64,000 nucleotides of DNA from Enterobacter cloacae complex sp. ECNIH7 (GTDB lineage: Bacteria; Pseudomonadota; Gammaproteobacteria; Enterobacterales; Enterobacteriaceae). Shown here piece after piece: positions 4,039 through 58,165 of the stretch (position 1 is the first letter of the stretch; each line of letters begins with the position of its first letter). The notes beneath the pieces were generated by a model. It made no database searches. It saw only the letters and a list, made by a program, of their open reading frames with translations, and was not told where the DNA came from. Made by a program: the position numbers and the translations under genes. The DNA is taken from NCBI RefSeq assembly GCF_002208095.1, contig NZ_CP017990.1:1426001-1490000 (forward strand), written 5' to 3'.

Positions 4039-4218
4039 AAAGCAAAACGGCAACTATGTTGCCGTTTTTAGTGTTTGCCCCCTCTCCCCGTGGGAGAGGG
4101 CTGGTGTGAGGGCATCAGGCCGCACAAGGTCAAAGCAAAACGGCAACTATGTTGCCGTTTTTAGTGTTTGCCCCCTCTCCCCGTGGGAGAGGGCTGGTGT
4201 GAGGGCATCAGGCCGCAC
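4039..4218 (+). repeat. Tandem duplication of a composite terminator + palindrome repeat
   Basis: Two identical 87-base copies (4039-4125 and 4132-4218) lie with a 93-base period. Each copy has first an intrinsic terminator (stem ACGGCAAC/GTTGCCGT followed by a T-run) and then a GC-rich palindrome (CCCTCTCC/GGAGAGGG) ending in the tail GTGAGGGCATCAGGCCGCAC. The first copy begins right after the ybeL stop and would terminate ybeL. The second overlaps the last codons of rihA on the other strand. Related units occur at 15753, 34288, 52768 and, more loosely, 58058. Confidence 0.95.
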
Positions 4219-5149
4219 TATAGTAAGCCAGTCTCTCCGCCAGCAAATCCACAAACGCCTCGCGATCGATATCTACCATCACCGTGGTATTCGCTTTATT
4301 CCCCGTCAGCGAGTAGTAATCCACCACCGTCATTCCCTGGGTGTATTTTCCCTGCGTCTCAACACCAACCCATCTGTCCACCGTGGTGAACATCTCCGGC
4401 TTCAGTAGCCAGGCAATGGTGCACGGGTCGTGCAGCGGCGCGCCGTGGAAGCCCCACTTCTCGGCTTTGTGATACTCCATAAAGAAGTCGAGCAGTTCGG
4501 CCACGGTTGTCGCGACCGTATTACCCACGGAGCGGAAGCGCTCAATATCGTCCGCCATAATCTGCGCGCGGTGGGTAACGTCCAGTCCCGCCATTACAAT
4601 CGGTAAGCCGGACTGGAAGACAATTTCCGCGGCTTCCGGGTCGACAAAGATGTTGAACTCCGCCGCAGGCGTCCAGTTCCCCAGCCCCATTGCCCCGCCC
4701 ATAATCACAATTCGGGCAATTTTATTATGCAGCTCAGGATGGCTGTTCAGCAGCAGCGCAACGTTGGTTTGCGGTCCTGTTGCCACCAGCGTTACCGGTT
4801 CTGCACTCTCACGTAGAACCTTCGCCATCAGCTCCACGGCGGTACAGTTTTGCGGCGTGAAGCCCGGCTCCGGCAGTGCCGGACCGTCCAGCCCGCTTTC
4901 ACCATGAACGTTGTCGGCAATAATCAGCTCGCGCATCAGCGGCTTCACGGCCCCGCCGGCGACAGGAATATCGGTGCGTTTGAGCAGCGTGAGCATGCGC
5001 AGCACGTTGCGCAGGGTTTTGTCTGGCGTCTGGTTTCCGGCGGACGAGGTGACGGCTTTTACCTCGAGTTCAGGGGAGGCAAGAGCGAGGACGAGCGCGA
5101 TCGCGTCGTCATGACCCGGATCGCAATCGAGAATAATAGGCTGTGCCAT
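4208..5149 (-). CDS. rihA: Pyrimidine-specific ribonucleoside hydrolase RihA
   Basis: Cytosolic nucleoside hydrolase that cleaves cytidine and uridine to base and ribose for salvage. The N-terminal calcium-binding signature of the inosine/uridine hydrolase family, DCDPGHDDA, is at residues 8-16, and the family sequences [14 protein letters not shown] and [14 protein letters not shown] follow. The start [15 protein letters not shown] (5149) is chosen to match E. coli RihA (311 residues); the frame is open four codons further. The protein is 313 residues. Its last codons (about SAA-stop) are written by the end of the second copy of the 4039-4218 repeat, so the C-terminus differs from the E. coli form, which ends near KFYA. 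Confidence 0.95.
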
Positions 5150-5269
5150 AGCGTTCTCCATACGTAGCGTTATTTTGTGACAAGGTTAACGCTGCAATGT
5201 GACGCCGACGAGAGGAACTGAGTGAAAGCGTGAAGCAGTGCGCAATCCGCAGATTGCGCACCGGGAAGG

Positions 5270-5995
5270 TTAGTGCAGGATTTTCGCAAGGAAATCTTTC
5301 GCACGCTCGGATTTCGGGTTAGCGAAGAACTCTTCTTTCGGTGAGTCTTCGACAATTTTCCCTTCGTCCATAAAGATCACGCGGTTGGCCACTTTACGGG
5401 CGAAGCCCATTTCGTGGGTCACCACCATCATGGTCATCCCTTCGTGAGCCAGCTCGACCATTACATCCAGCACTTCGTTGATCATCTCTGGATCGAGCGC
5501 CGACGTTGGCTCATCAAACAGCATTGCCACCGGATCCATACACAGCGCGCGGGCGATCGCCACACGCTGCTGTTGGCCGCCAGAAAGCTGTGCCGGGAAC
5601 TTATCGGCATGCGCCGAAAGCCCAACGCGTTCCAGCAGCTTCAGACCTTTCTCGCGCGACGCTTTTTTATCACGCTTAAGCACTTTTACCTGCGCCAGCG
5701 TCAGGTTCTCAATAATGGAGAGGTGAGGGAACAGCTCAAAATGCTGGAACACCATGCCAACGTGAGAGCGAAGCTGAGCGAGGTTGGTTTTCTTGTCGTT
5801 GACCTTGGTGCCGTTGACGACGATCTCACCCTGCTGCACCGGCTCCAGTCCGTTGACGGTTTTGATCAGCGTCGATTTACCGGAGCCGGACGGCCCGCAC
5901 ACCACCACCACGTCGCCTTTCTTGACTTCGGTGGAGCAGTCGGTCAGCACCTGAAAGTGCCCATACCATTTAGAAACATTTTTCAGGGAAATCAT
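5270..5995 (-). CDS. gltL: Glutamate/aspartate ABC transporter, ATP-binding subunit
   Basis: A 241-residue ATPase of the polar amino-acid uptake family that powers GltJK-mediated import of glutamate and aspartate. Walker A is GPSGSGKST (around residues 34-42), the ABC signature is [15 protein letters not shown], Walker B is [14 protein letters not shown], and the switch histidine lies in VVTHEMGF. Its ATG overlaps the gltK stop by one base, as expected for the last gene of gltIJKL. About 120 bases separate its end from the rihA start, and no strong terminator is obvious there. Confidence 0.97.
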
Positions 5996-6669
5996 TATAC
6001 CGTCCTTTTCTTCAGCCAGCTGACCAACAGCGACGCGCTTAAACTAATCACAAAATAGACCGCACCCGCGAAGAGCACCATTTCGACCTGCGTACCATCA
6101 CGTTCACCGATGGTTGACGCGGTACGGAAGAAGTCTGCCAGACTCAGAACGTAGACCAGCGAGGTATCCTGGAACAGCACGATGCCCTGGGTCAGCAGGA
6201 GCGGAACCATGGCGCGAAACGCCTGCGGCAGAATAATGAGCTGCATGGACTGCCAGTGCGTCATTCCCAGCGCCAGCGCGGCGCTGGATTGCCCGCGGGA
6301 GATACTCTGAATGCCCGCTCGGATAATCTCCGAGTAGTAAGCGGCCTCGAACATTGAGAACGCCACCATGGCGGAGATCAGACGGATATCGGTTTTCGGC
6401 GAAAGCCCCAGCACGTTCTGCAGGAAACCGGGCACAATCAGGTAAAACCACAGCAGCACCATCACCAGCGGGATGGAACGGAACACGTTAACGTAGGCGG
6501 TCGCAAACCAGGCGAGCGGCTTAAAGCTCGACAGGCGCATGACGGCCAGCAGGGTGCCCCAGACGATACCAATGATGATGGCAATAACGGTGATTTTTAA
6601 GGTAATCACCAGGCCATCAAGCAGGTAAGGCATGGATGGAACGATAGAACTCCAGTCAAATTCGTACAT
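5995..6669 (-). CDS. gltK: Glutamate/aspartate ABC transporter, permease subunit GltK
   Basis: A 224-residue inner-membrane permease of the HisM type. The conserved EAA loop that contacts the ATPase is visible as [26 protein letters not shown], and the sequence shows about five hydrophobic segments. It pairs with GltJ to form the channel. It begins at the last base of gltJ and overlaps gltL by one base, so the three genes are translated as a tight block. The length equals E. coli GltK. Confidence 0.96.
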
Positions 6670-7409
6670 TATTTGCCCCCCAGATTACCCGGCAGGCGGA
6701 TTTTGCGTTCAACCAGGTTCATCACCAGCATGATGAAAGCGTTAATCAGAACATACGCGAGCGTAATCGCGGTGAAGGATTCCCACGCGTGAGCGGAGTA
6801 ATCCAGCAGCTTGCCCGCCTGCGCGGCCATGTCGACCAGGCCGATAGTCGAGGCGATGGCCGAGTTTTTCACCAGGTTCATCATCTCGGAGGTCATCGGC
6901 GGAACGATAACGCGGTAGGCGTTAGGCAGCAGCACGTAGCGGTAGGTTTGGGGCAGTGTCAGGCCCATTGCCAGGCCCGCGTTTTTTTGTCCACGCGGCA
7001 ATGACTGAATGGCGGCACGCACCTGCTCGCAAACGCGCGCAGCGGTAAACAGCCCCAGACACATCATGGAGGAGACAAAGAACTGCACGTTCGGATCCAG
7101 CTCCGACTTGAACCACATGCCAATATTTTCCGGCAGCAGTTCCGGGATGACCAGATACCAGGTAAAGAATTGCACGATCAGCGGAACGTTACGGAACAGT
7201 TCCACATACAGGGTGCCAAGCGTTGAAAGAAAACGGTTAGGGACGGTGCGCAGAATACCGAACAGAGAACCGACAAGAAACGCGATAATCCACGCCGTTA
7301 TCGATAGTGCCACGGTGACCTGAAAGCCGCTCCACAGCCAGCCAAGATAGGTGGTGTTGCCGAACGGGGCTTGTTGCAGGAATATGCCCCAGTTCCAGTC
7401 TATTGACAT
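6669..7409 (-). CDS. gltJ: Glutamate/aspartate ABC transporter, permease subunit GltJ
   Basis: A 246-residue inner-membrane permease, partner of GltK. The start [17 protein letters not shown] at 7409 is the family start; the longer open frame upstream reads through the SroC region and is not coding. The EAA-type loop is [27 protein letters not shown]. Several hydrophobic helices are present (for example [20 protein letters not shown]). The gene lies downstream of gltI, separated by the SroC RNA with its terminator, so part of gltIJKL transcription is expected to end before gltJ. Confidence 0.96.
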
Positions 7410-7421
7410 AATAAACTCCAG

Positions 7422-7564
7422 AAAAAAAAGGGTAGCAGCGCTACCCTCGAAGATTGGTGAGAAGCTCATTTTTCGCGCTGAGTGGGGAACGACCACTCAA
7501 CGTATAGTCTGTCCATGCTTCCCGACAATCGAGAGGGCAGGAGTTCCCGCCCCTGTAGTTCTAA
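7422..7564 (-). ncRNA. sroC: SroC small RNA (gltI-gltJ intercistronic), ending in a terminator
   Basis: In E. coli the gltI-gltJ gap gives rise to SroC, a decay product that acts as a sponge for the GcvB RNA. Here the gap is about 155 bases and ends, on the minus strand, in a clear intrinsic terminator: stem GGGTAGC/GCTACCC (7430-7436 with 7440-7446) followed by eight Ts (7429-7422). A second hairpin candidate lies in the GC-rich GGGGCGGGAACTCCTGCCC stretch. The call rests on position, length and terminator; the 5' end is not defined by sequence. Confidence 0.7.
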
Positions 7565-8470
7565 TTAGTTAAGAGCCTTGTCGTTTGGAGATTTGAACAG
7601 CGCTTTCATGTCGTCAGACAGTTCAAAATTCATGTTCAGGTTTTTTGGTGGAATCGGGTTCTTGAACCATTTGTCGAACCATTTCTCCGCTTCGCCGGAG
7701 GTCTGCACCTGAGCGATGGTGTCATCGATCAGCTTTTTGAACTGCGGATCGTCTTTACGCAGCATACAGCCGTAGGCTTCTTTGGACTGCGCGGTACCGA
7801 CGATATCCCAGTTGTCTGGTTTTTTCGCTTTCGCACGTTCGCCCGCCAGCAGAGCATCATCCATCATAAACGCGACGGCACGACCGCTTTCCAGGGTACG
7901 GAAGGAGTCGCCATGGTCTTTCGCGCTGATGATGCGCATATCCATTTTCTTCTCGTCGTTCAGCTTGTGCAGCAGCACTTCTGACGTCGTACCAGAGGTC
8001 ACAACAACCGCTTTGCCTTTCAGGTCAGCGAAGTCTTTGATCTCGCCGCCTTTCTTCGTCAGCAGACGGGTGCCCACGACAAAGATGGTGTCAGAGAAGG
8101 CAGCCTGTTTCTGACGCTCGAGGTTGTTGGTGGTGGAGCCACACTCGAAGTCAAAGGTGCCGTTTTGCAGCAGTGGAATACGGTTCTGTGAAGTGATTGG
8201 GATCAGCTTCACCTGCAGGTCAGGTTTGTTCAGCTTTTTCTTCACAGCTTCAACGATGGCGTTGGAGTAATCCTGTGAATAGCCCACGACTTTTTGCGTG
8301 TTGTCGTAGTAAGAGAACGGGACAGAAGATTCACGGTGGCCGACCACGATGACGCCGTTTTTGGCAATCTTGTCGAGAGTGCTGCCTGCTGCCGGAGCAT
8401 CTTCAGCGTGAACCACGCCTGCAGACATTCCCATAACCAGCATTGCTGTGGCCAGTTTACGTAATTGCAT
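7565..8470 (-). CDS. gltI: Glutamate/aspartate periplasmic binding protein
   Basis: A 301-residue periplasmic solute-binding protein, the substrate-capture part of the GltIJKL importer. The start MQLRKLATAMLVMGMSAG (8470) is chosen because AAGGAG lies upstream at the right distance and the result is a classic Sec signal peptide ending near VHA at residue 22; the upstream in-frame codons lack this. Type 3 binding-protein signatures VVGHRESSVPFSYYD and YSQDYSNAIVEAVKKKL are present, as is FECGSTTNN. The leader contains a C/A-rich GcvB-type target at 8511-8528. First gene of gltIJKL. Confidence 0.96.
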   Translation of the reverse strand: MQLRKLATAMLVMGMSAGVVHAEDAPAAGSTLDKIAKNGVIVVGHRESSVPFSYYDNTQKVVGYSQDYSNAIVEAVKKKLNKPDLQVKLIPITSQNRIPLLQNGTFDFECGSTTNNLERQKQAAFSDTIFVVGTRLLTKKGGEIKDFADLKGKAVVVTSGTTSEVLLHKLNDEKKMDMRIISAKDHGDSFRTLESGRAVAFMMDDALLAGERAKAKKPDNWDIVGTAQSKEAYGCMLRKDDPQFKKLIDDTIAQVQTSGEAEKWFDKWFKNPIPPKNLNMNFELSDDMKALFKSPNDKALN

Positions 8471-8510
8471 ACCCAACTCCTTTTTTATCAGCGCCAGCGA
8501 CGCATTGATA

Positions 8511-8528
8511 CCCATTGTGATGTTGTTA
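8511..8528 (-). promoter_or_regulatory. Probable GcvB small-RNA target in the gltI leader
   Basis: The minus-strand leader of gltI has the C/A-rich stretch TAACAACATCACAATGGG about 41-58 bases before the start codon. GcvB is known to repress gltI by pairing its G/U-rich R1 loop with a C/A-rich element at roughly -57 to -45, and this element sits there. Function is inferred from composition and position. Confidence 0.65.
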
Positions 8529-8785
8529 TATCTCGCGCAGTGCGAGTGCAGTGTTATGCAAGCTTGTTAACATTTAGTCTGGCTTAATGTAAAGATTTTG
8601 CTGCGTTATTGTTTATTTTTGCGAAGCGCGCCGCACCATTCAGAGGCAAATATCTCCCGTTGCACCGTTTCGGTGCTGCCGATGATCTACGCTGGTGCGA
8701 CAAAGTTGCACGCTAAGCCAAACTGCGTTTACCTGAATAAACAAAGCAATAGGCGTGCCAGAATGGGAATCTGGAGAAAATTGTC

Positions 8786-8807
8786 GGGTGGCGGCTACGC
8801 CACCCGG
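8786..8807. repeat. REP-like hairpin in the lnt-gltI gap (8471-8822)
   Basis: The stem CGGGTGGCG (8786-8794) pairs perfectly with CGCCACCCG (8799-8807) around a GCTA loop, a typical REP-type extragenic palindrome, placed just after the lnt stop. It has no T-run but can stabilise the lnt mRNA end. The rest of the 352-base gap holds the gltI leader and, presumably, its promoter upstream of 8530; I see no other gene there. Confidence 0.75.
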
Positions 8808-8822
8808 CAACAGAAGGAAAGG

Positions 8823-10361
8823 TTATTTACGACGCTGACGCAGGCTCATCAGCACCGCGCCAAAGCCGAACAGCGCGGTCAGTACCCACAGCGGCCAGTT
8901 GCCGGTGCGCGCGTATGGCGTCAGCCCCGTGGTTGGCGTGACTTTAGTGGTCAGTACCTCGCGGGTAAACTGCGGGATCATCGCCTGAATCTCGCCCTGC
9001 GGACCAATCACAGCGGTGATGCCGTTGTTGGTGCTGCGCAGCAGCGGACGCGCCAGCTCCAGAGAGCGCATACGTGCCATCTGGAAGTGCTGCCACGGCC
9101 CGATTGATTTACCAAACCAGGCATCGTTGGAGATGGTCAGCAGATAGTCGGTATCCGGGCGGAAGTTATCGCGTACCTGCTCGCCGAGAATGATTTCGTA
9201 GCAGATGGCCGCCGTCAGGGCCAGGCCGTGCGCGTGCAGCTGAGGCTGTACGTAAGGGCCGCGGCTGAAAGAGGACATCGGCAGGTCAAAGAACGGGGCC
9301 AGCGGGCGCAGAATCGACTCCAGCGGGACAAATTCACCAAACGGCACCAGGTGGTTCTTGTTGTACCGGTCAGTGGAGTGGTAGCTGTACTCGCTATCTT
9401 TCCCGAGCGTAATGATGCTGTTGTAGGTGTCGTAGCGGTTGTGCTGATTCAGACGCGCATCGACAATCCCGGTGATCAGGGTGCTGCCGCGCGCCAGCAG
9501 CAGGTCGTTCATCATGTTGAGGAACGGCTGCTGGTTGAGCTCCAGATCGGGAATGGCAGACTCCGGCCAGATAATCAGCTGTGATTTTCCCATCACCTCT
9601 TCGGTGGCGTTGGCGTAGATCTTCAGCGTATTCAGCAGCTCTTTCTCGTCCCACTTCATGGACTGCGGGATGTTCCCCTGCACCATGGACACCTGCAGGG
9701 TGCGCTCTGGCTCGGGCGTGAACCACTGGATATAGCGCAGCGGGAAGGGCAGGGCAAACAGCACCAGCGCCACAGCCAGCGGCTTCCAGCAGCGTGTGAC
9801 CAGCGCTAATACCAGCAGGCCGCTCACCACCATCAGCAGGAAGTTGATGGCCTCAACGCCCATTACCGGCGCCAGCCCCTTCAGGGGGCCGTCAATCTGG
9901 CTGTAGCCGAACTGTAGCCACGGGAAGCCCGTCAGCACCCAGCCGCGAAGGAACTCGGTTATTTGCCAGACCACCGGCGCGGCAATGGCGACGCGCAGCC
10001 AGGTGGTTTTTGGCCACAGGCGAGAAAGGATGCCGGCGAACAGACCGGTATAGAGCGAGAGATACGCGGCGAGCAATACCACCAGGAAGACGTTTACCGG
10101 GCCAGGCATACCGCCAAACTGGGCGATGCTGACATAAACCCAGTTGATGCCTGAGCCAAACAGCCCCAGTCCCCAGAAGTAACCGATGGCCGCAGCCTGT
10201 ACCGGACGACGATTCAGGGTCAGGCCCTGAAGCCCCATCAGGGAGAGAATAGCCGCAGGCCAGATATCGTAAGGAGAAAAAGCCAGCGTACCGCTGGCTC
10301 CGAGTAACAGCGCCAGCAGCAAACGGACGCGCTGGCGTTCAAGCAGTGGGGCAAATGCCAT
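8823..10361 (-). CDS. lnt: Apolipoprotein N-acyltransferase
   Basis: Integral inner-membrane enzyme (512 residues, the E. coli length) that adds the third acyl chain to lipoproteins, needed before Lol sorting. The N-terminal half has about seven hydrophobic helices; the periplasmic C-terminal half is a nitrilase-like domain. The catalytic triad positions are present: Glu267 in IIWPESAIP, the lysine in [11 protein letters not shown] and the cysteine in AAICYEI. It starts five bases after corC ends, so it is the last gene of ybeZ-ybeY-corC-lnt. The product acts directly on lipoproteins such as LptE and ChiQ encoded in this window. Confidence 0.97.
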
Positions 10362-10366
10362 TTACA

Positions 10367-11245
10367 TTAATCTTCCAGTTTTGGCACCGGTGAGTCGTCC
10401 GGCGTTCTGACGTGAACCTGTATAATACGTCGGCTGTCGGCCATTGCCACTTTGAACTGGTAACCGTCGATGTCAACGGTCTCACCGCGCGCCGGGAGGT
10501 GGCCAAAGGCCTGCATCACCAGCCCGCCAATGGTATCGACCTCTTCATCGCTGAAGTGGGTACCGAAGGCGTCGTTGAAGTCCTCAATCGAGGCCAGCGC
10601 GCGCACGGTCCAGGTGTGGCGGCTAAGCTGACGGAAGTCGATATCTTCTTCTTCGTCGTACTCGTCTTCGATTTCGCCCACGATCAGCTCAAGAATATCC
10701 TCGATCGTGACCAGACCGGAAACGCCACCAAACTCATCAATAACAATCGCCATGTGGTAACGCTGAGAGCGAAATTCTTTCAGCATCCGATCCACACGTT
10801 TACTTTCCGGCACAACCACGGCCTGGCGTAACACTTTTTCCATGCTGAAGGCTTCGGCATCGCTGCGCATAAACGGCAGCAGATCTTTCGCCATCAAAAT
10901 CCCTTCGATGTGATCTTTGTCTTCGCTGATGACCGGGAAACGCGAGTGGGCCGATTCGATGATCACATCGAGGCACTCGTCTAGGGTCTGGTTACGTTTC
11001 AGGGTGATCATCTGCGAGCGGGGGATCATGATATCGCGAACGCGCTGGTCGGCGATGTCCATAACCCCTTCGAGCATTTCGCGCGTATCTTCGTCGATAA
11101 GGTCGTTCTGCCCGGAATCACGAATCAGCTCCAGCAGTTCATCACGGTTTTTGGGTTCGCCGTGGAAAAGCTGGTTCAGAATGAGGGAGAAAAATCCCTT
11201 TTTACTGGTTGTCGTGTCGCTACTGTGTGAATTGTCGTCGCTCAT
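10367..11245 (-). CDS. corC: CorC/YbeX, CBS-domain protein of Mg/Co homeostasis
   Basis: A 292-residue cytoplasmic protein with two CBS domains (residues about 70-190, containing [17 protein letters not shown] and [18 protein letters not shown]) and a C-terminal CorC_HlyC transporter-associated domain ([15 protein letters not shown] to the end). It lacks the membrane DUF21 domain of longer relatives. It was linked to magnesium and cobalt efflux with CorA and more recently to ribosome metabolism with YbeY. The start [18 protein letters not shown] (11245) matches E. coli; the open frame extends 15 codons further. It sits between ybeY and lnt in one operon. Confidence 0.95.
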
Positions 11246-11334
11246 GGCGTTTGTTAAGGGTTCTCTTGTTAGTTCAACGTTTACCGCCACGCGATATCCT
11301 TTCGTGGCGGCATGTGAGTCAGTCAGGTGACGGA

Positions 11335-11802
11335 CTATTCTTTCTCGGCAATGTACGGATCCTCATAGCCCAGAGCAAGCATTATCTCTGTCTCGAGGGA
11401 CTCCATCTCTTCCGCTTCGTCATCTTCAATGTGATCGTAGCCGAGCAGATGCAGGCTGCCGTGTACCACCATATGCGCCCAGTGGGCCTCAAGCGGCTTT
11501 TGCTGCTCTTTCGCTTCCTGTTCAACCACCTGACGGCAGATGATCAGATCGCCCAGCAGCGGCATCTCAATGCCCGGAGGCGCTTCAAACGGGAAAGAGA
11601 GCACGTTGGTCGGCTTATCTTTCCCGCGATAGGTCAGGTTAAGCTCATGACTTTCTGCTTCATCCACCAGGCGAATCGTAACTTCTGATTCTTCCTGAAA
11701 CTGAGGAATAACGGCATCCAGCCATTTCTGAAACTGTGCCTCATCTGGCATGCCGGAATTGTCTTCACAGGCCAGCTGTAAATCGAGGATCACCTGACTC
11801 AT
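11335..11802 (-). CDS. ybeY: Endoribonuclease YbeY
   Basis: A 155-residue metal-dependent RNase acting in 16S rRNA 3'-end maturation and ribosome quality control. The three-histidine zinc site of the UPF0054 family is intact: His114, His118 and His124 in [11 protein letters not shown], followed by an acidic tail. The conserved TNVLSFPFE is at about residues 65-73. The ATG overlaps the ybeZ stop (ATGA), pointing to coupled translation. Same length as E. coli YbeY. Confidence 0.97.
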
Positions 11803-12845: not shown

Positions 12846-12952
12846 ACTGTTCCTCTTTAATTGTTTAACTGACCCATTGCGATAGGGCGTAATAAAACGG
12901 TCATTACCGAAATTATTCACGCCACAGAATAAAGGCGCAAGCGTTGCGGAAG

Positions 12953-12981
12953 ATATTGGGGACGATGAGAGGAAATACAAG
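12953..12981 (-). promoter_or_regulatory. Candidate heat-shock (sigma-32) promoter of ybeZYX-lnt
   Basis: On the minus strand, CTTGTAT (from 12981) and CCCCAATAT (12961-12953) are separated by 13 bases, close to the sigma-32 consensus CTTGAA and CCCCATnT. This would start transcription about 100 bases before the ybeZ TTG. The ybeZ operon is reported to be heat-inducible in E. coli; the match here is by eye. The -35 element touches the miaB hairpin. Confidence 0.5.
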
Positions 12982-13001: not shown

Positions 13002-13008
13002 AGGAGGA

Positions 13009-15752: not shown

Positions 15753-15798
15753 CCCTCTCCCCGTGGGAGAGGGTCAGGGTGAGGGCATCAGGCCGCAC
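15753..15798 (+). repeat. Palindromic repeat of the 4039 family, lacking the terminator half
   Basis: It contains the palindrome CCCTCTCC/GGAGAGGG and the complete conserved tail GTGAGGGCATCAGGCCGCAC, starting eight bases after the ubiF stop. The upstream terminator hairpin found in the copies at 4039 and 52768 is missing; the unrelated terminator at 15817 follows instead. Confidence 0.9.
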
Positions 15799-15853: not shown

Positions 15854-15928
15854 TGGCTGGGGTGCAGGGATTCGAACCCCGGAATGCTGGTATCAGAAAC
15901 CAGAGCCTTACCGCTTGGCGACACCCCA
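15854..15928 (-). tRNA. glnX: tRNA-Gln (CUG), divergent copy
   Basis: 75 nt with encoded CCA; it folds as a cloverleaf with anticodon loop TTCTGAT (anticodon CTG). It differs from the neighbouring tRNA-Gln(CTG) at ten positions; eight form four compensated base pairs (7/66, 28/42, 31/39, 51/63), one makes a G-U pair (50/64) and one is position 26. The tRNA is therefore likely still functional. Last gene of the seven-tRNA operon, in the place of glnX. Confidence 0.95.
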
Positions 15929-15964
15929 ATTGCGTTAAACAAACTGCTTAACGACTTTTTAAAT

Positions 15965-16039
15965 TGGCTGGGGTACGAGGATTCGAACCTCGGAATGCCG
16001 GAATCAGAATCCGGTGCCTTACCGCTTGGCGATACCCCA
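15965..16039 (-). tRNA. glnV: tRNA-Gln (CUG)
   Basis: 75 nt with encoded CCA; acceptor TGGGGTA/TACCCCA, anticodon stem CCGGA/TCCGG and loop TTCTGAT with anticodon CTG. It matches the E. coli glnV/glnX sequence as I know it. Second from the end of the operon. Confidence 0.97.
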
Positions 16040-16079
16040 ACAATTTTTGTTGATTACCGAAAAATCGACAATCTTAATT

Positions 16080-16156
16080 TGGTGGCTACGACGGGATTCG
16101 AACCTGTGACCCCATCATTATGAGTGATGTGCTCTAACCAACTGAGCTACGTAGCC
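16080..16156 (-). tRNA. metU: tRNA-Met (elongator, CAU)
   Basis: 77 nt with encoded CCA, acceptor GGCTACG/CGTAGCC, anticodon loop CTCATAA. It lacks the initiator features (unpaired first base, GGG/CCC anticodon stem), so it is the elongator. It is identical to the copy at 16472-16548. Confidence 0.97.
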
Positions 16157-16173
16157 AGTACTGCAATCTTCGA

Positions 16174-16248
16174 TGGCTGGGGTACCTGGATTCGAACCAG
16201 GGAATGCCGGTATCAAAAACCGGTGCCTTACCGCTTGGCGATACCCCA
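16174..16248 (-). tRNA. glnW: tRNA-Gln (UUG)
   Basis: 75 nt with CCA; anticodon stem CCGGT/ACCGG and loop TTTTGAT (anticodon TTG). Identical to the adjacent copy at 16281-16355. Confidence 0.97.
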
Positions 16249-16280
16249 ATACCGCGGAGAACCGCAAAATCGAAGAAATA

Positions 16281-16355
16281 TGGCTGGGGTACCTGGATTC
16301 GAACCAGGGAATGCCGGTATCAAAAACCGGTGCCTTACCGCTTGGCGATACCCCA
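16281..16355 (-). tRNA. glnU: tRNA-Gln (UUG)
   Basis: 75 nt with CCA, anticodon TTG, identical to the copy at 16174. The tandem pair mirrors E. coli glnU-glnW. Confidence 0.97.
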
Positions 16356-16378
16356 TCCGTGCAACGCTTACCCGGGAA

Positions 16379-16463
16379 TGGTGCGGGAGGCGAGACTTGA
16401 ACTCGCACACCTTGCGGCGCCAGAACCTAAATCTGGTGCGTCTACCAATTTCGCCACTCCCGC
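16379..16463 (-). tRNA. leuW: tRNA-Leu (UAG)
   Basis: 85 nt with CCA and a long variable arm, as expected of a class II tRNA; acceptor GCGGGAG, anticodon loop TTTAGGT region with anticodon TAG. Position and sequence correspond to leuW. Confidence 0.97.
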
Positions 16464-16471
16464 AAAAAAGA

Positions 16472-16548
16472 TGGTGGCTACGACGGGATTCGAACCTGTG
16501 ACCCCATCATTATGAGTGATGTGCTCTAACCAACTGAGCTACGTAGCC
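16472..16548 (-). tRNA. metT: tRNA-Met (elongator, CAU)
   Basis: 77 nt with CCA, identical to metU at 16080. It is the promoter-proximal gene, about 40 bases from the promoter -10. Confidence 0.97.
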
Positions 16549-34287: not shown

Positions 34288-34420
34288 GTGCGGGCTGATG
34301 CCCTCACCCCGGCCCTCTCCCATAGGGAGAGGGAGAAAACACTAAAAGCGGCAACCCATGGGTTGCCGTTTTGCTTTGACCTCGAAGGCCCGGTAAGCGC
34401 TAGAGCCACTGGGCTTTTTT
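34288..34420 (-). repeat. Composite terminator/palindrome repeat (inverted) plus REP hairpin, pgm-potE gap
   Basis: 34288-34380 is the reverse complement of the 4039-family unit: tail GTGCGGGCTGATGCCCTCAC (one mismatch), palindrome CCCTCTCC/GGGAGAGGG, then the hairpin CGGCAACCC/GGGTTGCCG (34349-34368) with matching flanks (CACTAAAA, TTTTGCTTTGAC). Directly after it, 34386-34420 is a REP-like GCCCGGTAAGCGC...GGGC hairpin with a T-run. Between them these elements fill the space between the convergent pgm and potE and can terminate both. Confidence 0.85.
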
Positions 34421-46869: not shown

Positions 46870-46892
46870 TACGAAGACTACACATAGCAATA

Positions 46893-47338: not shown

Positions 47339-47342
47339 CGCC

Positions 47343-48880: not shown

Positions 48881-48890
48881 GAGAGTGATG

Positions 48891-49634: not shown

Positions 49635-49648
49635 CGAGAGGTAGTTAA

Positions 49649-50305: not shown

Positions 50306-51231
50306 CACTTATTCGCGCCGGGCTTTACACCTCCGTACAGGATGCCGGCCGCTTTGGTCTGCGCCAGTCGGGCGTGAGCTACTGCGGTGCGCTTGACCGT
50401 CCTTCGCTGGAGATTGCCAACCTGCTTGTGGGCAACGAAGGCAGCACGGCGGCGCTAGAAATTACGCTGGGTCAGTGTGTGATTGAGTTTGGTCAGGAAA
50501 CCTGGTTTGCCTTAACCGGCGCAGGGTGTGATGCGACGCTGGATGGCAAAGCGGTGTGGACCGGCTGGCGGCTGCGGGCGAAAGCCGGGCAGCGCCTGAC
50601 GCTCAAACGTCCGCTGCACGGTGTGCGTAGCTATCTCGCGGTGGCTGGCGGCATTGACGTGCCGGAGGTGCTGGGTTCATCCAGTACCGATCAGAAGGCC
50701 GGGATCGGCGGTCACGAAGGACGTTTGTTGCGCGACGGCGATCGGCTGGCAATCAAACCCTCCGCGCGCCATTTCTCGACCACGCAGGGCGTAAAACAGC
50801 TGCTGTGGGGAAACCAGATCCGCGCCTTACCGGGGCCGGAATATCATGAGTTTGACGAGGCTTCTAAAGAGTCCTTCTGGCGTGCGCCGTGGAAGATCAG
50901 CCCGCAGAGTAACCGCATGGGCTACCGCCTTCAGGGGCAGCCGCTGACCCGCACGACGGACCGGGAGCTGCTCTCCCACGGTTTATTGCCTGGGGTTATT
51001 CAGGTGCCGGGAAACGGTCAGCCCATCGTATTAATGAACGATGCGCAAACTACCGGCGGCTATCCGCGCATTGCCTGCATCATTGAAGCGGATCGCTACC
51101 ATCTGGCGCAAATTCCCCTCGGCCAGCCGATTCACTTCGTGCAGTGTTCGCTGGAGGAGGCGCTTAAGGCGCGGCAGGATCAGCAGCGTTATCTTGAACA
51201 GCTGGCGTGGAGGCTTGATGGTAAAGATTGA
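50299..51231 (+). CDS. pxpC: 5-oxoprolinase subunit PxpC (YbgK)
   Basis: A 310-residue subunit of the KipA/AHS2 family, partner of PxpB. Signatures include [21 protein letters not shown] at the N-terminus, [20 protein letters not shown] in the middle and [12 protein letters not shown] with [18 protein letters not shown] in the C-terminal half. Overlaps at both ends (7 bases with pxpB, 14 with pxpA) show coupled translation. Confidence 0.95.
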
Positions 51232-51958
51232 TTTGAACGCCGATCTGGGGGAGGGAAGCAGCGCTGATTCGGAACTGATGACCCTGGTCACCTCGGTCAA
51301 TATCGCCTGCGGCTTTCACGCGGGTGATGCCCAAACCATGCTGGAGAGCGTGCGTAATGCCATTAAAAACGGCGTCGCGATTGGGGCTCACCCCAGCTTT
51401 CCCGATCGGGAAAACTTTGGCCGTACGGCGATGGATCTGCCCCCTGAGACGGTCTACGCTCAGGTGCTCTACCAGATCGGCGCGCTGGAGGCGATGGTGC
51501 GCGCCCAGAACGGCGTGATGCGCCACGTGAAGCCGCACGGCATGCTCTACAACCAGGCGGCGAAAGATGCGGATCTGGCGGACGCCATTGCCCGCGCGGT
51601 GCGGGACTGTAATCCGCAGCTGATTCTGGTAGGCCTTGCGGGCAGCCAGCTGATTCGTGCCGGAGAACGGCTGGGCCTGACCACCCGTCAGGAAGTGTTT
51701 GCCGATCGGGGATACCAGCCGGACGGCAGCCTGGTGCCGCGGACGCAGGCCGGGGCGCTGATTACCGACGAAGCTAAAGCGCTGGCGCAGACGCTGGAGA
51801 TGGTGCGCGCCGGGCGGGTGATCGCCGTGGACGGAACACCGGCAAACGTGCAGGCCGATACGGTATGTTTACACGGCGATGGCGAGCATGCGCTCCAGTT
51901 CGCGCGCCGCTTGCGGGCAGCGTTCTCTGAAGAGGGTATCCTCGTCAGCGCCGAATAA
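51218..51958 (+). CDS. pxpA: 5-oxoprolinase subunit PxpA (YbgL, LamB/YcsF family)
   Basis: A 246-residue protein of the LamB/YcsF family, a deacetylase-like TIM barrel thought to open the 5-oxoproline ring. Family motifs: [13 protein letters not shown] at the N-terminus, [42 protein letters not shown] and [18 protein letters not shown] start at the ATG 51218 (GGAGG at 51209-51213); the much longer open frame lies inside pxpC and is not coding. Confidence 0.95.
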
Positions 51959-51977
51959 TGACGATAAGGACACAAAA

Positions 51978-52769
51978 ATGCCTGAAGGTCCGGAGATCCG
52001 CCGCGCGGCGGATAGCCTGGAGGCGGCGATAAAGGGCAAACCCCTGACGGATGTCTGGTTTGCTTTTCCTCAACTGAAACCGTTTGAATCACAGCTGGTG
52101 GGCCAGACGGTGACCCATATTGAAACGCGCGGCAAAGCCTTGCTTACGCACTTTTCCCATAACCTGACGTTATATAGCCATAACCAGCTTTACGGCGTCT
52201 GGCGCGTGGTGGAGGCGGACGAGCAGCCGCAAACCACTCGCGTGCTGCGCGTCAGGCTGCAAACGGCGGATAAGGCGATCCTGCTCTATAGTGCGTCGGA
52301 TATCGAAATGCTTACGCCGGAGCAGCTGCTGACGCACCCGTTTCTGCAGCGGGTCGGGCCGGACGTGCTGGACATGCGCCTGACGGCGAGCGACGTGAAG
52401 GCCCGGCTGTTATCACCTAAATTTCGTAACCGACAGTTTTCCGGTTTGTTTCTCGACCAGGCCTTTCTGGCCGGGCTGGGCAACTACCTGCGGGTAGAGA
52501 TCCTCTGGGAAGTCGGGCTGGCGGCGCAGCATAAAGCGTCTGAGCTGAATGATGAACAGCTGGAGGCGTTGTCCCACGCGCTGCTGGATATTCCGTGGCT
52601 CTCGTACAACACGCGCGGCGTGGCGGATGAGAACACGCATCACGGGGCGCTGTTCCGGTTCAAGGTGTTTCATCGGGCGGGGAAGAAGTGCGAGCGATGC
52701 GGCGGGATTATCGACAGGATTATGCTCTCTTCCAGACCTTTTTACTGGTGCCCGCACTGCCAGAAATAA
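51978..52769 (+). CDS. nei: Endonuclease VIII (Nei)
   Basis: A 263-residue DNA glycosylase/AP lyase removing oxidised pyrimidines. After Met removal the catalytic Pro and Glu are the first residues ([12 protein letters not shown]). The helix-two-turn-helix and C-terminal zinc finger (CERC ... CPHC in [10 protein letters not shown] and FYWCPHCQK) are complete. The start at 51978 is required for the N-terminal proline. Last gene of the phrB-ybgI-pxpBCA-nei run; a composite terminator repeat begins at its stop. Confidence 0.97.
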
Positions 52770-52858
52770 AAGTAAAACGGTAACCCTTGGGTTACCGTTT
52801 TTAATGTTTTCACCCTCTCCCTGTGGGAGAGGGTCGGGGTGAGGGCATCAGGCCGCAC
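52768..52858 (+). repeat. Composite terminator/palindrome repeat after nei
   Basis: Same architecture as 4039-4125: the hairpin ACGGTAACCC/GGGTTACCGT with a T-run, TAATGTTTT, the palindrome CCCTCTCC/GGGAGAGGG, then the tail GTGAGGGCATCAGGCCGCAC. It begins on the last bases of the nei stop and ends ten bases before the gltA stop, filling the whole gap between the convergent genes. Confidence 0.92.
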
Positions 52859-52868
52859 CCAACATCTT

Positions 52869-54152
52869 TTAGCGCTTCAGGTCAGACTTAAAATCACGCT
52901 GCTCGTAGCCGGTATACAGCTGACGAGGACGGGCGATTTTCATGCCTTCGCTGTGCATTTCGTTCCAGTGCGCAATCCAGCCTACGGTACGGGCCATAGC
53001 GAAGATCACGGTGAACATGGAAGACGGAATGCCCATCGCTTTCAGAATAATGCCAGAGTAGAAATCGACGTTCGGGTAGAGTTTCTTCTCGATGAAGTAC
53101 GGGTCGTTCAGTGCGATGTGTTCCAGCTCCATCGCCACTTCCAGCAGATCATCTTTGGTACCCAGCTCTTTCAGCACTTCGTGGCAGGTCTCACGCATGA
53201 CGGTGGCGCGCGGGTCGTAGTTTTTGTAAACACGGTGACCGAAGCCCATCAGGCGGAAGGAGTCATTCTTGTCTTTCGCGCGACGCACGAACTCAGGAAT
53301 GTGCTCAACGGTGCTGATCTCTTCCAGCATCTTCAGTGCCGCTTCGTTCGCGCCGCCGTGCGCCGGTCCCCACAGGGAAGCGATGCCCGCAGCGATACAG
53401 GCGAACGGGTTCGCGCCTGAAGAGCCCGCGGTACGGACGGTAGAGGTAGAGGCGTTTTGTTCGTGGTCAGCGTGCAGGATCAGAATACGGTCCATTGCGC
53501 GTTCCAGCACCGGGTTCACTTCGTACTCTTCGCACGGTGTGGAGAACATCATGCGCAGGAAGTTACCCGCGTAGGAGAGGTCGTTGCGCGGATACACAAA
53601 CGGCTGGCCGATGGAGTATTTGTAGCACATCGCCGCCATGGTAGGCATTTTGGACAGCAGGCGGAACGCCGCGATATCACGGTGACGCGGGTTATTCACG
53701 TCAAGGGAGTCGTGGTAGAACGCCGCCAGCGCACCGGTGATACCGCACATCACCGCCATCGGGTGAGAGTCACGGCGGAACGCATGGAACAGACGGGTAA
53801 TCTGCTCATGGATCATGGTGTGACGGGTCACGGTGGTTTTGAATTCATCGTACTGTGCCTGCGTCGGTTTTTCGCCGTTCAGCAGGATGTAGCACACTTC
53901 CAGATAGTTGGATTCGGTGGCTAACTGATCGATGGGGAAGCCGCGATGGAGCAGGATACCTTCGTCACCGTCAATGTAGGTGATTTTGGATTCGCAAGAT
54001 GCGGTAGAGGTAAATCCAGGGTCAAAGGTGAATACACCTTTAGAGCCCAGCGTACGGATATCAATAACATCCTGACCGAGCGTGCCTTTTAGCACATCCA
54101 GTTCAATAGCAGTGTCACCATTTAGGGTGAGCGTTGCCTTTGTATCAGCCAT
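52869..54152 (-). CDS. gltA: Citrate synthase (type II)
   Basis: A 427-residue hexameric, NADH-inhibited citrate synthase catalysing the entry step of the TCA cycle. Catalytic regions: the first His in [13 protein letters not shown], the second in [14 protein letters not shown], and the Asp in [10 protein letters not shown]. The N-terminal beta-domain ([20 protein letters not shown]) is typical of the Gram-negative form. AGGAGAC precedes the ATG. It is divergent from sdhCDAB with about 650 bases between the genes. Confidence 0.98.
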
Positions 54153-54550
54153 TTACGGTCTCCTTAGCGCCTTATGCTTAAGACTGCGCTTTACCGGATT
54201 TGCTTTCAGCTGTTAATCACCGTTACCAGATTGTTATTTGGCTTTCCGCTCAGCTCACGAGGACAAACCAGGGTACAGAGCTATGGCGCCTTGCAGGTAA
54301 ACGAATGAAATATCAGTGAAACCACAGCAAATCAGCGTTTTTGCAGTCCGAATTATTCAAACCTGTATATCACTAATAACTGTCCTGATAACTTCGGTCA
54401 ATACCATCACACTGTTACATAACTATTTGTCAGGTGAAAGAGAGACCTCATAACTTTTGCGCATTATATGCCTTTTCTGATGACGTTTGTAACAATATTG
54501 TTTAACATTTGTCAAATCAGATGATTAAAAATTAAAAAGATGTTGTTATC

Positions 54551-54564
54551 GTGACCCTGATCAC
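54551..54564. promoter_or_regulatory. CRP site in the gltA-sdhC control region
   Basis: GTGA-N6-TCAC at 54551-54564 (GTGACCCTGATCAC) lies about 80 bases upstream of the predicted sdhC start. CRP activation of both gltA and sdh is known in E. coli. Other A/T-rich stretches at 54400-54540 may hold ArcA sites, which I cannot define by eye. Confidence 0.7.
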
Positions 54565-54602
54565 TGTTCCAGAGAAAACCCGACAAACTGTATGTAGGTT
54601 AA

Positions 54603-54631
54603 TTGTAATGATTTTGTGAACGGCCTATACT
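54603..54631 (+). promoter_or_regulatory. sdhC promoter
   Basis: TTGTAA (54603-54608) and TATACT (54626-54631) are 17 bases apart, and the downstream sequence TGCCGCCAGGTCTCCGGAAC is that of the E. coli sdhC start region as I remember it. The leader to the sdhC ATG is about 170 bases. The 54153-54806 interval contains no gene beyond these control elements. Confidence 0.8.
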
Positions 54632-54806
54632 GCCGCCAGGTCTCCGGAACACCCTGCAATCCCGAGCCACCCAGCGTTGTAACGTGTCGTTTAAGCATCT
54701 GGAAGCAGTGTTTTGCATGACGCGCAGTTATAGAAAAGGAACGCTGCTTGACCCGCATCGCAGTCCGGAGGAAGGAAACAATAAGAACAGCATGTGGGCG
54801 TTATTC

Positions 54807-55196
54807 ATGATAAGAAATGTGAAAAAACAAAGACCTGTCAATCTGGATCTCAAAACGATCCGGTTCCCTGTAACAGCAATAGCGTCCATTCTGCACCGTG
54901 TTTCTGGTGTGATTACGTTTGTGGCGGTCGGTATTTTGCTGTGGTTACTGGGCACCAGCCTCTCTTCCCCTGAAGGATTCCTCCAGGCCTCTGCCATCAT
55001 GAACAGCTTCTTCGTGAAATTCATCATGTGGGGCATTCTGACCGCGCTGGCGTACCATGTCGTTGTGGGTGTTCGCCATATGCTGATGGACTTTGGCTAC
55101 CTGGAAGAGACTTTCGAAGCCGGGAAACGCTCCGCTAACATTTCATTTGTGATTACTGTCGTGCTTTCACTTCTCGCAGGAGTTCTCGTATGGTAA
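54807..55196 (+). CDS. sdhC: Succinate dehydrogenase cytochrome b556 subunit
   Basis: A 129-residue membrane anchor with three helices that binds haem b and quinone together with SdhD. The N-terminal [20 protein letters not shown] and the haem-ligand region [20 protein letters not shown] are conserved. I use the ATG at 54807 to match E. coli; an in-frame ATG five codons upstream (54792) is possible. It overlaps sdhD by seven bases and opens the sdhCDAB-sucABCD operon. Confidence 0.95.
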
Positions 55197-55537
55197 GCAA
55201 CGCCTCCGCATTAGGACGCAACGGCGTACATGACTTCATTCTGGTCCGTGCTACCGCCATCGTTCTCACTCTTTACATCATCTATATGATCGGTTTCTTC
55301 GCGACCAGCGGCACGCTGACGTGGGAAATCTGGAGTGGGTTCTTCGGATCTGCCTTCACCAAAGTGTTCACCCTGCTGGCTCTGTTCTCCATCCTTATTC
55401 ATGCGTGGATTGGCATGTGGCAGGTGTTGACCGATTACGTTAAACCGCTGGCGATTCGCCTCCCACTGCAGCTGGCCATTGTTGTTGCACTGGTGGTTTA
55501 CGTTATTTATGGATTCGTTGTGGTGTGGGGTGTGTAA
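55190..55537 (+). CDS. sdhD: Succinate dehydrogenase membrane anchor SdhD
   Basis: A 115-residue three-helix anchor; the second haem-ligand region is in [20 protein letters not shown] (the His), which also lines the quinone site with the Tyr. The length equals E. coli SdhD. The stop codon shares one base with the sdhA ATG (TAATG). In E. coli RyhB represses sdh by pairing at the sdhC/D junction; I did not verify a site here. Confidence 0.96.
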
Positions 55538-57303
55538 TGAAACTGCCAGTCAGAGAATTTGATGCTGTTGTAATTGGTGCCGGTGGCGCAGGTATGCGTG
55601 CCGCACTGCAAATTTCCCAGAGCGGCCAGACCTGTGCGCTGCTCTCTAAAGTTTTCCCGACCCGTTCCCACACTGTGTCTGCGCAGGGCGGTATCACCGT
55701 TGCGCTGGGTAACTCCCATGAAGATAACTGGGAATGGCACATGTACGACACGGTAAAAGGTTCCGACTACATCGGCGACCAGGATGCCATCGAATATATG
55801 TGTAAAACCGGCCCGGAAGCGATTCTGGAGCTGGACCACATGGGTCTGCCGTTCTCCCGTCTGGAAAATGGCACTATCTATCAGCGTCCGTTTGGCGGCC
55901 AGTCGAAAAACTTCGGCGGCGAGCAGGCGGCACGCACCGCGGCGGCGGCTGACCGTACCGGTCACGCACTGCTGCACACCCTGTATCAGCAGAACCTGAA
56001 AAATCATACCACCATCTTCTCCGAGTGGTACGCGCTGGATCTGGTGAAAAATGCCGATGGCGCAATCGTCGGCTGTACCGCGCTGTGCATCGAAACCGGT
56101 GAAGTGGTTTACTTCAAAGCCCGCGCTACCGTGCTGGCTACCGGCGGCGCAGGCCGTATCTATCAGTCCACCACCAACGCCCACATCAACACCGGTGACG
56201 GTGTCGGCATGGCTATCCGCGCGGGCGTGCCGGTGCAGGATATGGAAATGTGGCAGTTCCACCCAACCGGTATCGCCGGTGCGGGCGTTCTGGTAACAGA
56301 AGGCTGCCGCGGTGAAGGTGGCTACCTGCTGAACAAACACGGCGAGCGCTTCATGGAGCGTTATGCCCCGAATGCGAAAGACCTGGCGGGTCGTGACGTG
56401 GTGGCGCGTTCCATCATGATCGAAATCCGTGAAGGCCGCGGCTGTGACGGCCCATGGGGTCCACACGCGAAGCTGAAGCTCGACCACCTGGGTAAAGAAG
56501 TTCTGGAGTCCCGTCTGCCGGGCATCCTGGAACTGTCCCGCACCTTCGCACACGTCGACCCGGTGAAAGAGCCGATTCCGGTTATCCCAACCTGCCACTA
56601 CATGATGGGCGGTATTCCGACCAAAGTGACCGGTCAGGCGCTGACCGTAAACGAGCAGGGCGAAGACGTGGTTATTCCTGGCCTGTTCGCGGTAGGCGAA
56701 ATTGCCTGCGTATCCGTACACGGTGCAAACCGTCTGGGCGGCAACTCCCTGCTGGACCTGGTGGTGTTTGGTCGTGCGGTGGGCCTGCATCTGCAGGAAT
56801 CTATTGCCGAGCAGGGCGCGCTGCGTGACGCGACCGACGACGAAATTGATGCCTCTCTTGAGCGTCTCAACCGCTGGAACGGTAACCGCAACGGCGAAGA
56901 TCCGGTGGAAATCCGTAAAGCGCTGCAGGAATGCATGCAGCACAACTTCTCGGTATTCCGTGAAGGCGACGCGATGGCCAAAGGTCTTGAGCAGCTGAAA
57001 GCGATCCGCGAGCGTCTGAAAAATGCCCGTCTGGACGACACCTCCAGCGAATTCAACACCCAGCGCGTTGAGTGCCTGGAGCTGGATAACCTGATGGAAA
57101 CCGCGTTCGCGACGGCGATGTCGGCAAACTTCCGTACCGAAAGCCGTGGCGCGCATAGCCGCTTCGACTTCCCGGATCGTGATGACGAAAACTGGCTGTG
57201 CCATTCCCTGTATCTGCCAGAGTCGGAATCCATGACGCGTCGTAGCGTCAACATGGAACCGAAACTGCGTCCGGCGTTCCCGCCGAAGATTCGTACTTAC
57301 TAA
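55537..57303 (+). CDS. sdhA: Succinate dehydrogenase flavoprotein subunit
   Basis: A 588-residue catalytic subunit oxidising succinate to fumarate. FAD-binding motif [14 protein letters not shown] at 11-24; covalent FAD at His45 in [10 protein letters not shown]. Active-site segments are [13 protein letters not shown] and [11 protein letters not shown], and the capping-domain Arg lies near GGIPTKV. Length equals E. coli. Starts inside the sdhD stop. Confidence 0.98.
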
Positions 57304-57318
57304 TGCGGAGACAGGATA

Positions 57319-58035
57319 ATGAAACTCGAATTCTCAGTTTATCGTTATAACCCGGATGTTGATGATGCTCCGCGTATGCAGGACTACACCCTGGAAGCGG
57401 AAGAAGGTCGCGACATGATGCTGCTGGATGCCTTAATCCAGCTGAAAGAAAAAGATCCTACGCTGTCGTTCCGCCGCTCCTGTCGTGAAGGGGTGTGTGG
57501 TTCTGACGGGGTGAACATGAACGGCAAAAATGGCCTGGCCTGCATCACGCCAATTTCAGCGCTGCAGCGTCCTGGTCAGAAAATTGTTATCCGTCCTCTG
57601 CCAGGCCTGCCGGTCGTGCGTGATTTGGTGGTAGACATGGGGCAATTCTATGCACAATATGAGAAGATTAAGCCTTACTTATTGAATAATGGGCAAAATC
57701 CACCCGCTCGCGAGCACTTACAGTCTCCTGAGCAGCGTGAAAAACTCGATGGGTTGTACGAGTGTATTCTCTGCGCATGCTGTTCAACGTCCTGCCCGTC
57801 GTTCTGGTGGAACCCGGACAAGTTTATCGGCCCGGCCGGTTTGCTGGCTGCCTATCGCTTCCTGATCGATAGCCGCGACACCGAAACCGATAGCCGTCTG
57901 GAAGGACTGAGTGACGCTTTCAGCGTATTCCGCTGCCATAGCATCATGAACTGCGTCAGTGTGTGTCCGAAGGGGCTGAACCCGACGCGCGCCATCGGCC
58001 ATATTAAGTCGATGCTGCTGCAGCGCAGTGCGTAA
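57319..58035 (+). CDS. sdhB: Succinate dehydrogenase iron-sulfur subunit
   Basis: A 238-residue electron-transfer subunit. The 2Fe-2S ligands lie in SCREGVCGSDG and the following GLAC; the 4Fe-4S and 3Fe-4S ligands in CILCACCSTSCPS, CHSIMNCVSVCPKGLNP. The length equals E. coli SdhB. It passes electrons from FAD to quinone at SdhCD. Sixteen bases after sdhA; followed by a repeat-rich gap before sucA. Confidence 0.98.
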   Translation: MKLEFSVYRYNPDVDDAPRMQDYTLEAEEGRDMMLLDALIQLKEKDPTLSFRRSCREGVCGSDGVNMNGKNGLACITPISALQRPGQKIVIRPLPGLPVVRDLVVDMGQFYAQYEKIKPYLLNNGQNPPAREHLQSPEQREKLDGLYECILCACCSTSCPSFWWNPDKFIGPAGLLAAYRFLIDSRDTETDSRLEGLSDAFSVFRCHSIMNCVSVCPKGLNPTRAIGHIKSMLLQRSA

Positions 58036-58057
58036 GTAGTGAGAGGGGAGCGGTGTT

Positions 58058-58165
58058 CCCCTCACCCTAACCCTCTCCCTAAGGGAGAGGGGACAGATTG
58101 CAGGAAATCTTTAAAAACTGCCGACGGCATTCCCCCTCTCCCTTAGGGAGGGGTAGGGGTGAGGG
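58058..58165. repeat. Inverted pair of palindromic repeats between sdhB and sucA
   Basis: 58058-58092 and 58132-58165 are near-inverted copies of a unit made of CCCTCACC and a CCCTCTCCC/GGGAGAGGG palindrome, related to the palindrome half of the 4039 family but without its conserved tail. Together they could form a long hairpin in the sdhB-sucA mRNA. Further on, AAGCAT/ATGCTT (58278-58293) sits just before the sucA ribosome site. Confidence 0.8.

Follow-up and report, generated by a model that had tools for sequence, protein, structure and literature searches.

Several genes in a 64,000-nucleotide stretch of Enterobacter cloacae complex sp. ECNIH7 (NZ_CP017990.1, positions 1,426,001 to 1,490,000; hereafter the window) end in the same repeat, a terminator-like hairpin followed by a spacer, a palindrome and a tail. 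Is this one element, is it already known, and does it bring a ready-made terminator to the genes it follows, as an earlier note on this DNA had proposed? Our analysis indicates that the unit is quite probably a composite repeat, in which a BoxC element of type B carries a fixed and putatively bidirectional intrinsic terminator on its 5′ side. The order and orientation of the parts are fixed and their spacing is nearly so, the hairpin arms remain complementary despite changes, the unit is placed at gene ends, and its presence or absence is polymorphic within the genus.

A hairpin joined to BoxC

The hairpin was searched for as AAAACGGYAAC-N2-8-GTTRCCGYTTT, and BoxC by the strict pattern CCCTCNCCC N3-6 GGGNGAGGG N3 GGGNGAGGG. 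In the 5.39-Mb genome to which the window belongs (the own genome), these patterns occur at 43 and 141 places, respectively, and their reversed controls at none, so that the repeat is indeed dispersed. For closer reading, 100 stretches of this genome were taken around the first 100 of the 141 listed BoxC copies, all 43 hairpins and some BLAST hits, while BoxC copies lying within the window were read from the window itself. The BoxC palindrome (up to three substitutions) is found immediately 3′ of 42 of the 43 hairpins and in the same orientation. The 43rd, at 3408446, passes into a repetitive extragenic palindromic (REP) sequence after TTTTTAG and is read as a truncated unit. Since 42 of 43 hairpins carry BoxC in this manner, hairpin, spacer, BoxC and tail are considered as one unit of 92-95 bp. 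Seen from the other side, these stretches contain 104 strict BoxC copies, of which 22 are accompanied by the hairpin (13 exactly, 9 with up to three substitutions) and 82 are not.

Looser searches of the same stretches return 46 or 61 units, according to the pattern used. The layout is that of a 5′ box (AGGTAAAAGC or close to it), the hairpin, the spacer TARTGTTTKC, BoxC of type B and the tail CATCAGGCCGCAC, and the distance between hairpin and BoxC, by fuzzy match, is 9-11 bases in 41 of 46 units. Tandem arrays contain up to four units, some repeating a single hairpin loop (the pair in the window and loci L169, L252 and L253), others with differing loops (L165, L167, the third unit of L175, and the pair at 1198628/1198722 in the own genome).

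The palindrome, which together with GTGAGGGC was not recognised in the earlier note, is the known repeat BoxC, also called PIT element, for potential intrastrand triplex, or TM_ECO (PMC4666352). The window copy at 52813-52846 is identical letter for letter to TM_ECO copy 20 of Escherichia coli MG1655. The published definition tolerates one mismatched pair, and copies, 23 in MG1655 and 143 in Enterobacter asburiae LF7a, come as types A and B and as inverted A+B pairs (PMC4666352). That report describes BoxC as known since the 1990s with no assigned function; the earlier tests cited there found neither promoter nor terminator activity, and triplexes form in vitro, whereas in vivo footprints do not favour a stable triplex. 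The copies studied here share the palindrome, the third G-rich strand, the type A and B loops, the inverted A+B pairs and the intergenic position, although a few of those in the own genome overlap a gene end called by our own gene caller. At least part of the tail also belongs to the known repeat; CATCAG..CGCAC stands 3′ of E. coli copies 1 and 20 as well. The difference lies in the terminator module, which is absent from the published motif of 34-37 bases to which the comparison was made (PMC4666352). A named family is therefore matched by the BoxC part of the unit and not by the hairpin part. Among the papers listed by the literature searches, none is, judged by title or abstract start, an account of a BoxC-terminator composite; so far as this search shows, the hairpin half is new, and the BoxC half is known.

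Six other BoxC copies of the own genome (644706, 673849, 974746, 1103733, 2475336 and 2558123) lie within a AATAATGCC...GACG context similar to that of a repeat at sites D and E (below), so that the genome seems to have another, larger family of repeats that include BoxC.

The pairing could also arise if BoxC preferred insertion just 3′ of intrinsic terminators, each hairpin being the host terminator of its target, which we hold to be unlikely. Some own BoxC copies do sit after quite different terminator-like hairpins, for example at 61955, 2619436 and 3453756, and at E. coli copy 20, between ilvC and ppiC, the same AGTGTTTT spacer separates BoxC from an unrelated hairpin; two BoxC-less hairpins outside the genus (L355 and L359) are, judged by sequence, seemingly at the end of pgm. 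Such targeting would nevertheless need the same 11-base arms in host terminators at about 40 loci, and it has to face both the 42 of 43 hairpins that carry BoxC, the last being a truncated unit, and a 5′ box that is likewise common to the units.

Placement at gene ends and predicted termination

Gaps of 30-600 bases between genes were sorted by gene orientation, as given by our own hexamer gene caller and not by annotation. In the own regions, 36 of the 49 gaps with a composite are convergent, 13 codirectional and none divergent, which agrees with the gene-end enrichment expected in the earlier note. Gaps with BoxC only (n=57) divide into 29, 27 and 1, and those with neither element (n=115) into 14, 60 and 41, in the same order. 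Stretches from a scan of genome_contigs, whose species are not independent of each other, give 88, 29 and 0 for the composite (n=117), 9, 11 and 1 for BoxC only (n=21), and 53, 266 and 153 for neither (n=472). Composite gaps differ from gaps with neither element (Fisher P 2e-14 in the own regions, 6e-42 in the genome_contigs stretches) and from those with BoxC only (P 0.027 and 0.008, respectively), the former contrast being inflated more than the latter because the elements lengthen gaps and the size limits exclude very short convergent ones. Lying mostly between convergent genes, the unit is probably a ready-made two-way terminator.

The hairpin itself has the G+C stem, short loop and T tract of an intrinsic terminator. 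The stem lies between an A tract (6-9 A in 12 bases) and a T tract (5-7 T in 8) in each of the 46 own units. Three hairpins of the window were submitted to a terminator scan, which is positive on both strands at 4044 and 52774 and on the plus strand only at 4137. Furthermore, a crude test by fold and T-run, applied to the alleles described below (2 of the 142, longer than 700 bases, were excluded), predicts two-way terminators in 71 of 74 composite alleles, 10 of 13 with the hairpin only, 1 of 14 with BoxC only and 7 of 39 others.

Moreover, the arms covary. Of the 506 arm cells in the 46 own units, 503 are paired, where 1000 shuffles reach 492 at most. Two-sided changes number 17, where shuffles reach at most 8; they affect five pairs, a single C-G/T-A pair accounting for 11. 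As this set consists of related copies, tandem ones included, the shuffles overstate the strength of the covariation. The 121 units of the genome_contigs stretches, chosen with a pattern in which most positions are fixed, and partly from orthologous loci, have 1327 of 1331 arm cells paired and 27 two-sided changes, with shuffle maxima of 1312 and 12. The loops vary, 37 being distinct among the 46 own units. Selection for a terminator is the simplest reading of this covariation, and scan and covariation together suggest that the composite carries the ready-made terminator announced in the earlier note.

REP sequences can protect the 3′ ends of mRNA. By analogy, the hairpin might be a structural or mRNA-stabilising 3′ hairpin, with its palindrome maintained by template switching or cruciform repair. 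Free loops with near-perfect arms are the outcome expected of palindrome correction, and the sites of the unit alternate with REP. A stability hairpin, however, has no need of the A and T tracts present around every one of the 46 stems, and the strong bias towards convergent gaps also counts against it, so that we give this explanation little credence. Chance resemblance of terminators adjoining BoxC, for which only the simplicity of terminators speaks, has next to no probability and is refuted by the 43 hairpins against a control of 0, by the 42 of 43 with BoxC, by reversed-pattern controls that are all 0 and by the 9-11 base distance in 41 of 46 own units.

Distribution, alleles and dispersal

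A 90-base unit query matches all 36 genomes of the genus, the own one included; among 24 genomes of other families, 3 match it weakly. In 35 of the 36 genus genomes, either a composite or an alignment close to full length was seen, G019 being the exception. Within the family, the strict composite pattern occurs in 10 of 198 genomes, in 7 of 154 genera, and the hairpin pattern in 17 of 198. The 80 stretches listed, of at least 120 from the genome_contigs scan, come from Enterobacter, Leclercia, Lelliottia, Pluralibacter, Silvania, Huaxiibacter, Pseudenterobacter, Klebsiella oxytoca and unclassified Enterobacteriaceae. Phages gave no match to the unit query, and 87 of 72,556 plasmid records did, 12 of them over at least 80% of its length.

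In E. coli, the query matches 4313 of 5426 genomes and is covered to at least 80% somewhere in 2470. The AAAACGG hairpin is absent from the four E. coli loci inspected, namely the top match (L160), which is the one locus taken from the genomes with at least 80% coverage, and copies 1, 4 and 20 of the 23 tabulated for MG1655; query coverage alone is therefore no proof of a composite in E. coli. The hairpin that precedes BoxC copy 20 of MG1655 (L161) is a perfect one, and the two together are possibly the E. coli counterpart of the composite.

Five sites were searched in the 36 genus genomes, with 30 stretches per site, of which 142 of 150 were readable; alleles were classed by fuzzy patterns. 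Site A (ybeL-rihA) has 26 alleles, 16 composite and 10 with BoxC but no hairpin. At site B (pgm-potE) there are 16 composites, 1 BoxC with REP, 4 hairpins without BoxC, 6 REP and 1 allele with neither (L215), a simple terminator. Site C (nei-gltA) has 20 composites, 1 hairpin only and 9 REP; site D 19, 2 hairpin only and 8 REP; and site E 9, 1 hairpin with REP, 3 BoxC only and 16 REP. Composite and REP alleles thus coexist in the genus at four of five orthologous sites, and the comparison of occupied with other sites that the earlier note had advised reveals a unit polymorphic between species. At sites D and E, three loci (L413 at D, L433 and L435 at E) contain a repeat, a few hundred bp long, that has its own BoxC and lies in or beside the palindrome of the unit's BoxC, in a AATAATGCCTGCAC ... 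GGAACATACGGCT context; in L413 the unit's palindrome is found on both sides of the repeat, and a similar repeat occurs in L439. In another allele of site D (L416), the loop of the BoxC palindrome is interrupted by an IS-like insert, about 1.3 kb long, whose ends are inverted, and BoxC may thus serve insertion sequences as a landing site.

On a FastTree tree of the flanking gene ends of 34 genomes, the presence of any part of the unit (hairpin or BoxC) requires at least 7 changes at site B, 7 at C, 8 at D and 6 at E, rough numbers since the tree is built from the same recombining regions. Shuffled labels give means of 6.4, 7.9, 7.2 and 9.7, respectively, and are as low as observed in 500, 150, 500 and 4 of 500 shuffles, so that this state follows the tree at E, whereas at B, C and D its fit is no better than that of shuffled labels. 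Over the five sites, units of one site compared across genomes are 84.8-90.5% identical, against 82.8% for different sites of one genome and 82.0% when both differ, while REP and other alleles share 58-75% within a site and 49% between sites. As identity within sites exceeds that between them, each site retains its own unit and its own REP allele. The sequences point to units and REP alleles that have since been lost, replaced or swapped between species, hence to old dispersal plus allele replacement and not to ongoing conversion between loci; the gene conversion considered in the earlier note finds no support in these identities.

The borders of the unit are of interest here. A half REP (GCCGGGTGGCG, one substitution at most) ends 0-6 bases before 7 of 46 own units and a complete REP 1 base before 2 of 46; at their 3′ ends, 2 of 42 units run straight into a reversed half REP. 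The 121 units of the genome_contigs set have 23 half-REP matches and 7 REP ends on the 5′ side, while the 3′ side has 1 of 100; at site C, the mosaics L237, L243 and L247 show a half REP and then the unit. Exchange points on the 5′ side therefore tend to fall at REP loops. These junctions reflect either insertion into REPs or recombination between alleles.

How the unit was dispersed is a question of its own. Neither a transposase nor a target duplication nor an active copy came to light; by eye, its ends have no terminal inverted repeat. The alleles without the unit are mostly REP or bacterial interspersed mosaic elements (BIMEs), hence no clean empty site was available for a target-duplication check. 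Of the mobility suggested in the earlier note, only past dispersal is thus upheld.

Correia elements and other miniature inverted-repeat transposable elements (MITEs) are small dispersed repeats that carry regulatory signals. The unit, too, is a small dispersed repeat carrying a transcription signal, but at its ends neither terminal inverted repeats nor target duplications were observed, and it is 92-95 bp long. Uptake-sequence terminators are formed by a repeated word in inverted pairs, and the predicted terminator of the unit is built in the same way. In the own stretches, 88 of 99 AACGGYAAC sites are hairpin arms and 11 are single, for 5.6 expected; with the word not much over-represented singly, an uptake-sequence terminator of the kind named in PMC2267715 was rejected. 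Classic REP/BIMEs, which are short palindromic repeats at gene ends (PMC3733652), resemble the unit in this and in that the same orthologous sites are occupied in other genomes of the genus. They differ in sequence, as the earlier note had rightly seen, and the unit ends in AGGTAAAAGC (or close) and CATCAGGCCGCAC, neither of which is a GTAG or CGTC tag. Furthermore, the Y1 transposase (PF01797) has no match in the own genome, with matches in 6 of the 36 genus genomes, and a REP driven by a REP-associated tyrosine transposase (RAYT) was rejected on this ground.

Several observations weigh against the composite reading. All 33 hairpins of the family genomes outside the genus were inspected, and 19 have a BoxC-like palindrome (up to four substitutions) and 14 none; of the 14, one borders masked bases, and BoxC remnants are visible by eye in at least two (L370, L371); the hairpin can thus exist without BoxC. 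Conversely, the terminator is dispensable at site A, where 10 of 26 genomes have BoxC without it. At site C, two quite different hairpin classes coexist, so that more than one arrival is possible and a single one uncertain. The placement is not owed to the terminator alone, since BoxC alone is also enriched between convergent genes (29 of 57 against 14 of 115). Template-switch correction of imperfect palindromes could also have produced the arm covariation, and no mobiliser of the unit is known, the own genome being without a match to the Y1 transposase.

On the composite reading, which we nonetheless prefer, an ancestral BoxC would have fused with a terminator, and the fused unit would have been copied around the chromosome long ago. 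Later, units would have been inherited and tandemly duplicated, and some would have given way to REP/BIME alleles or been exchanged for them, most likely through homologous recombination within the conserved genes on either side. The transcripts of these two genes would end at the hairpin. The terminator would be what selection keeps at convergent gene ends, and BoxC the part that turned it into a dispersed repeat.

Copies in the window and their meaning

The units of the window are present at the places and in the order given in the earlier note, with a common sequence that begins 2-5 bases further 5′ (AAATAAAAGC, AGGTCAAAGC); Table 1 gives their coordinates together with those of the other BoxC copies.

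Table 1. Composite units and BoxC copies of the window
Feature	Coordinates	Strand	Parts
Composite unit 1, after the ybeL-like gene (PRK11032)	4034..4125	+	5′ box 4034-4043; terminator-like hairpin 4044-4068; spacer; BoxC 4080-4112; tail 4113-4125
Composite unit 2, tandem copy with the hairpin loop of unit 1	4127..4218	+	hairpin 4137-4161; BoxC 4173-4205; tail 4206-4218
BoxC type B with tail, without AAAACGG hairpin, after the ubiF-like gene (ends 15744)	15753..15798	+	BoxC 15753-15785; tail to 15798
Composite unit between convergent pgm (ends 34276) and potE (ends 34420)	34288..34382	-	hairpin 34345-34372; BoxC 34301-34333; tail 34288-34300
Composite unit between convergent nei and gltA (ends 52869)	52764..52858	+	hairpin 52774-52801; BoxC 52813-52845; tail 52846-52858
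Inverted BoxC pair after sdhB, without hairpin module	58059..58165	both	type A 58059-58091 (-); degenerate copy 58134-58165 (+)

Four of these BoxC copies (15753, 34301, 52813 and 58059) match the strict pattern exactly; the tandem pair (4080/4173) and the copy at 58134 have mismatches to it. The stem of the hairpin between pgm and potE contains one A-C mismatch, and a REP-like end directly abuts the 5′ side of that unit. The genes neighbouring the repeats are leuS, PRK11032, rihA, the ubiF-like gene, pgm, potE, nei, gltA and sdhB. The full units stand directly after stop codons, as claimed before, and even overlap them: the stop of the ybeL-like gene (4033-4035) and that of nei (52767-52769) overlap the 5′ ends of their units, and the stop codon of rihA, which ends at 4208 on the minus strand, is within the tail of the second tandem unit, which thereby provides the end of the protein. 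An Rfam scan of the window at the gathering threshold gave nine matches, none of them at the units. Seven consecutive tRNA matches (15857-16548, minus strand) adjoin the BoxC at 15753.

The composite gives BoxC a testable role, as a large subfamily of it is joined to a predicted two-way terminator. Its copies also amount to dozens of natural terminator variants, in which the arms are nearly constant and the loops free. A scan for terminators only, or for BoxC only, catches just half of each element. Moreover, the turnover of gene-end sequences between species becomes visible as replacement by REP/BIME. We tentatively propose, as a possibility that goes beyond the composite itself, that convergent gene ends in Enterobacter may use interchangeable, dispersed terminator cassettes, for which the BoxC-borne terminator and REP/BIMEs would compete and which recombination would swap between species. 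If this is true, terminators would spread and be exchanged like mobile genes, and BoxC would be their vehicle.

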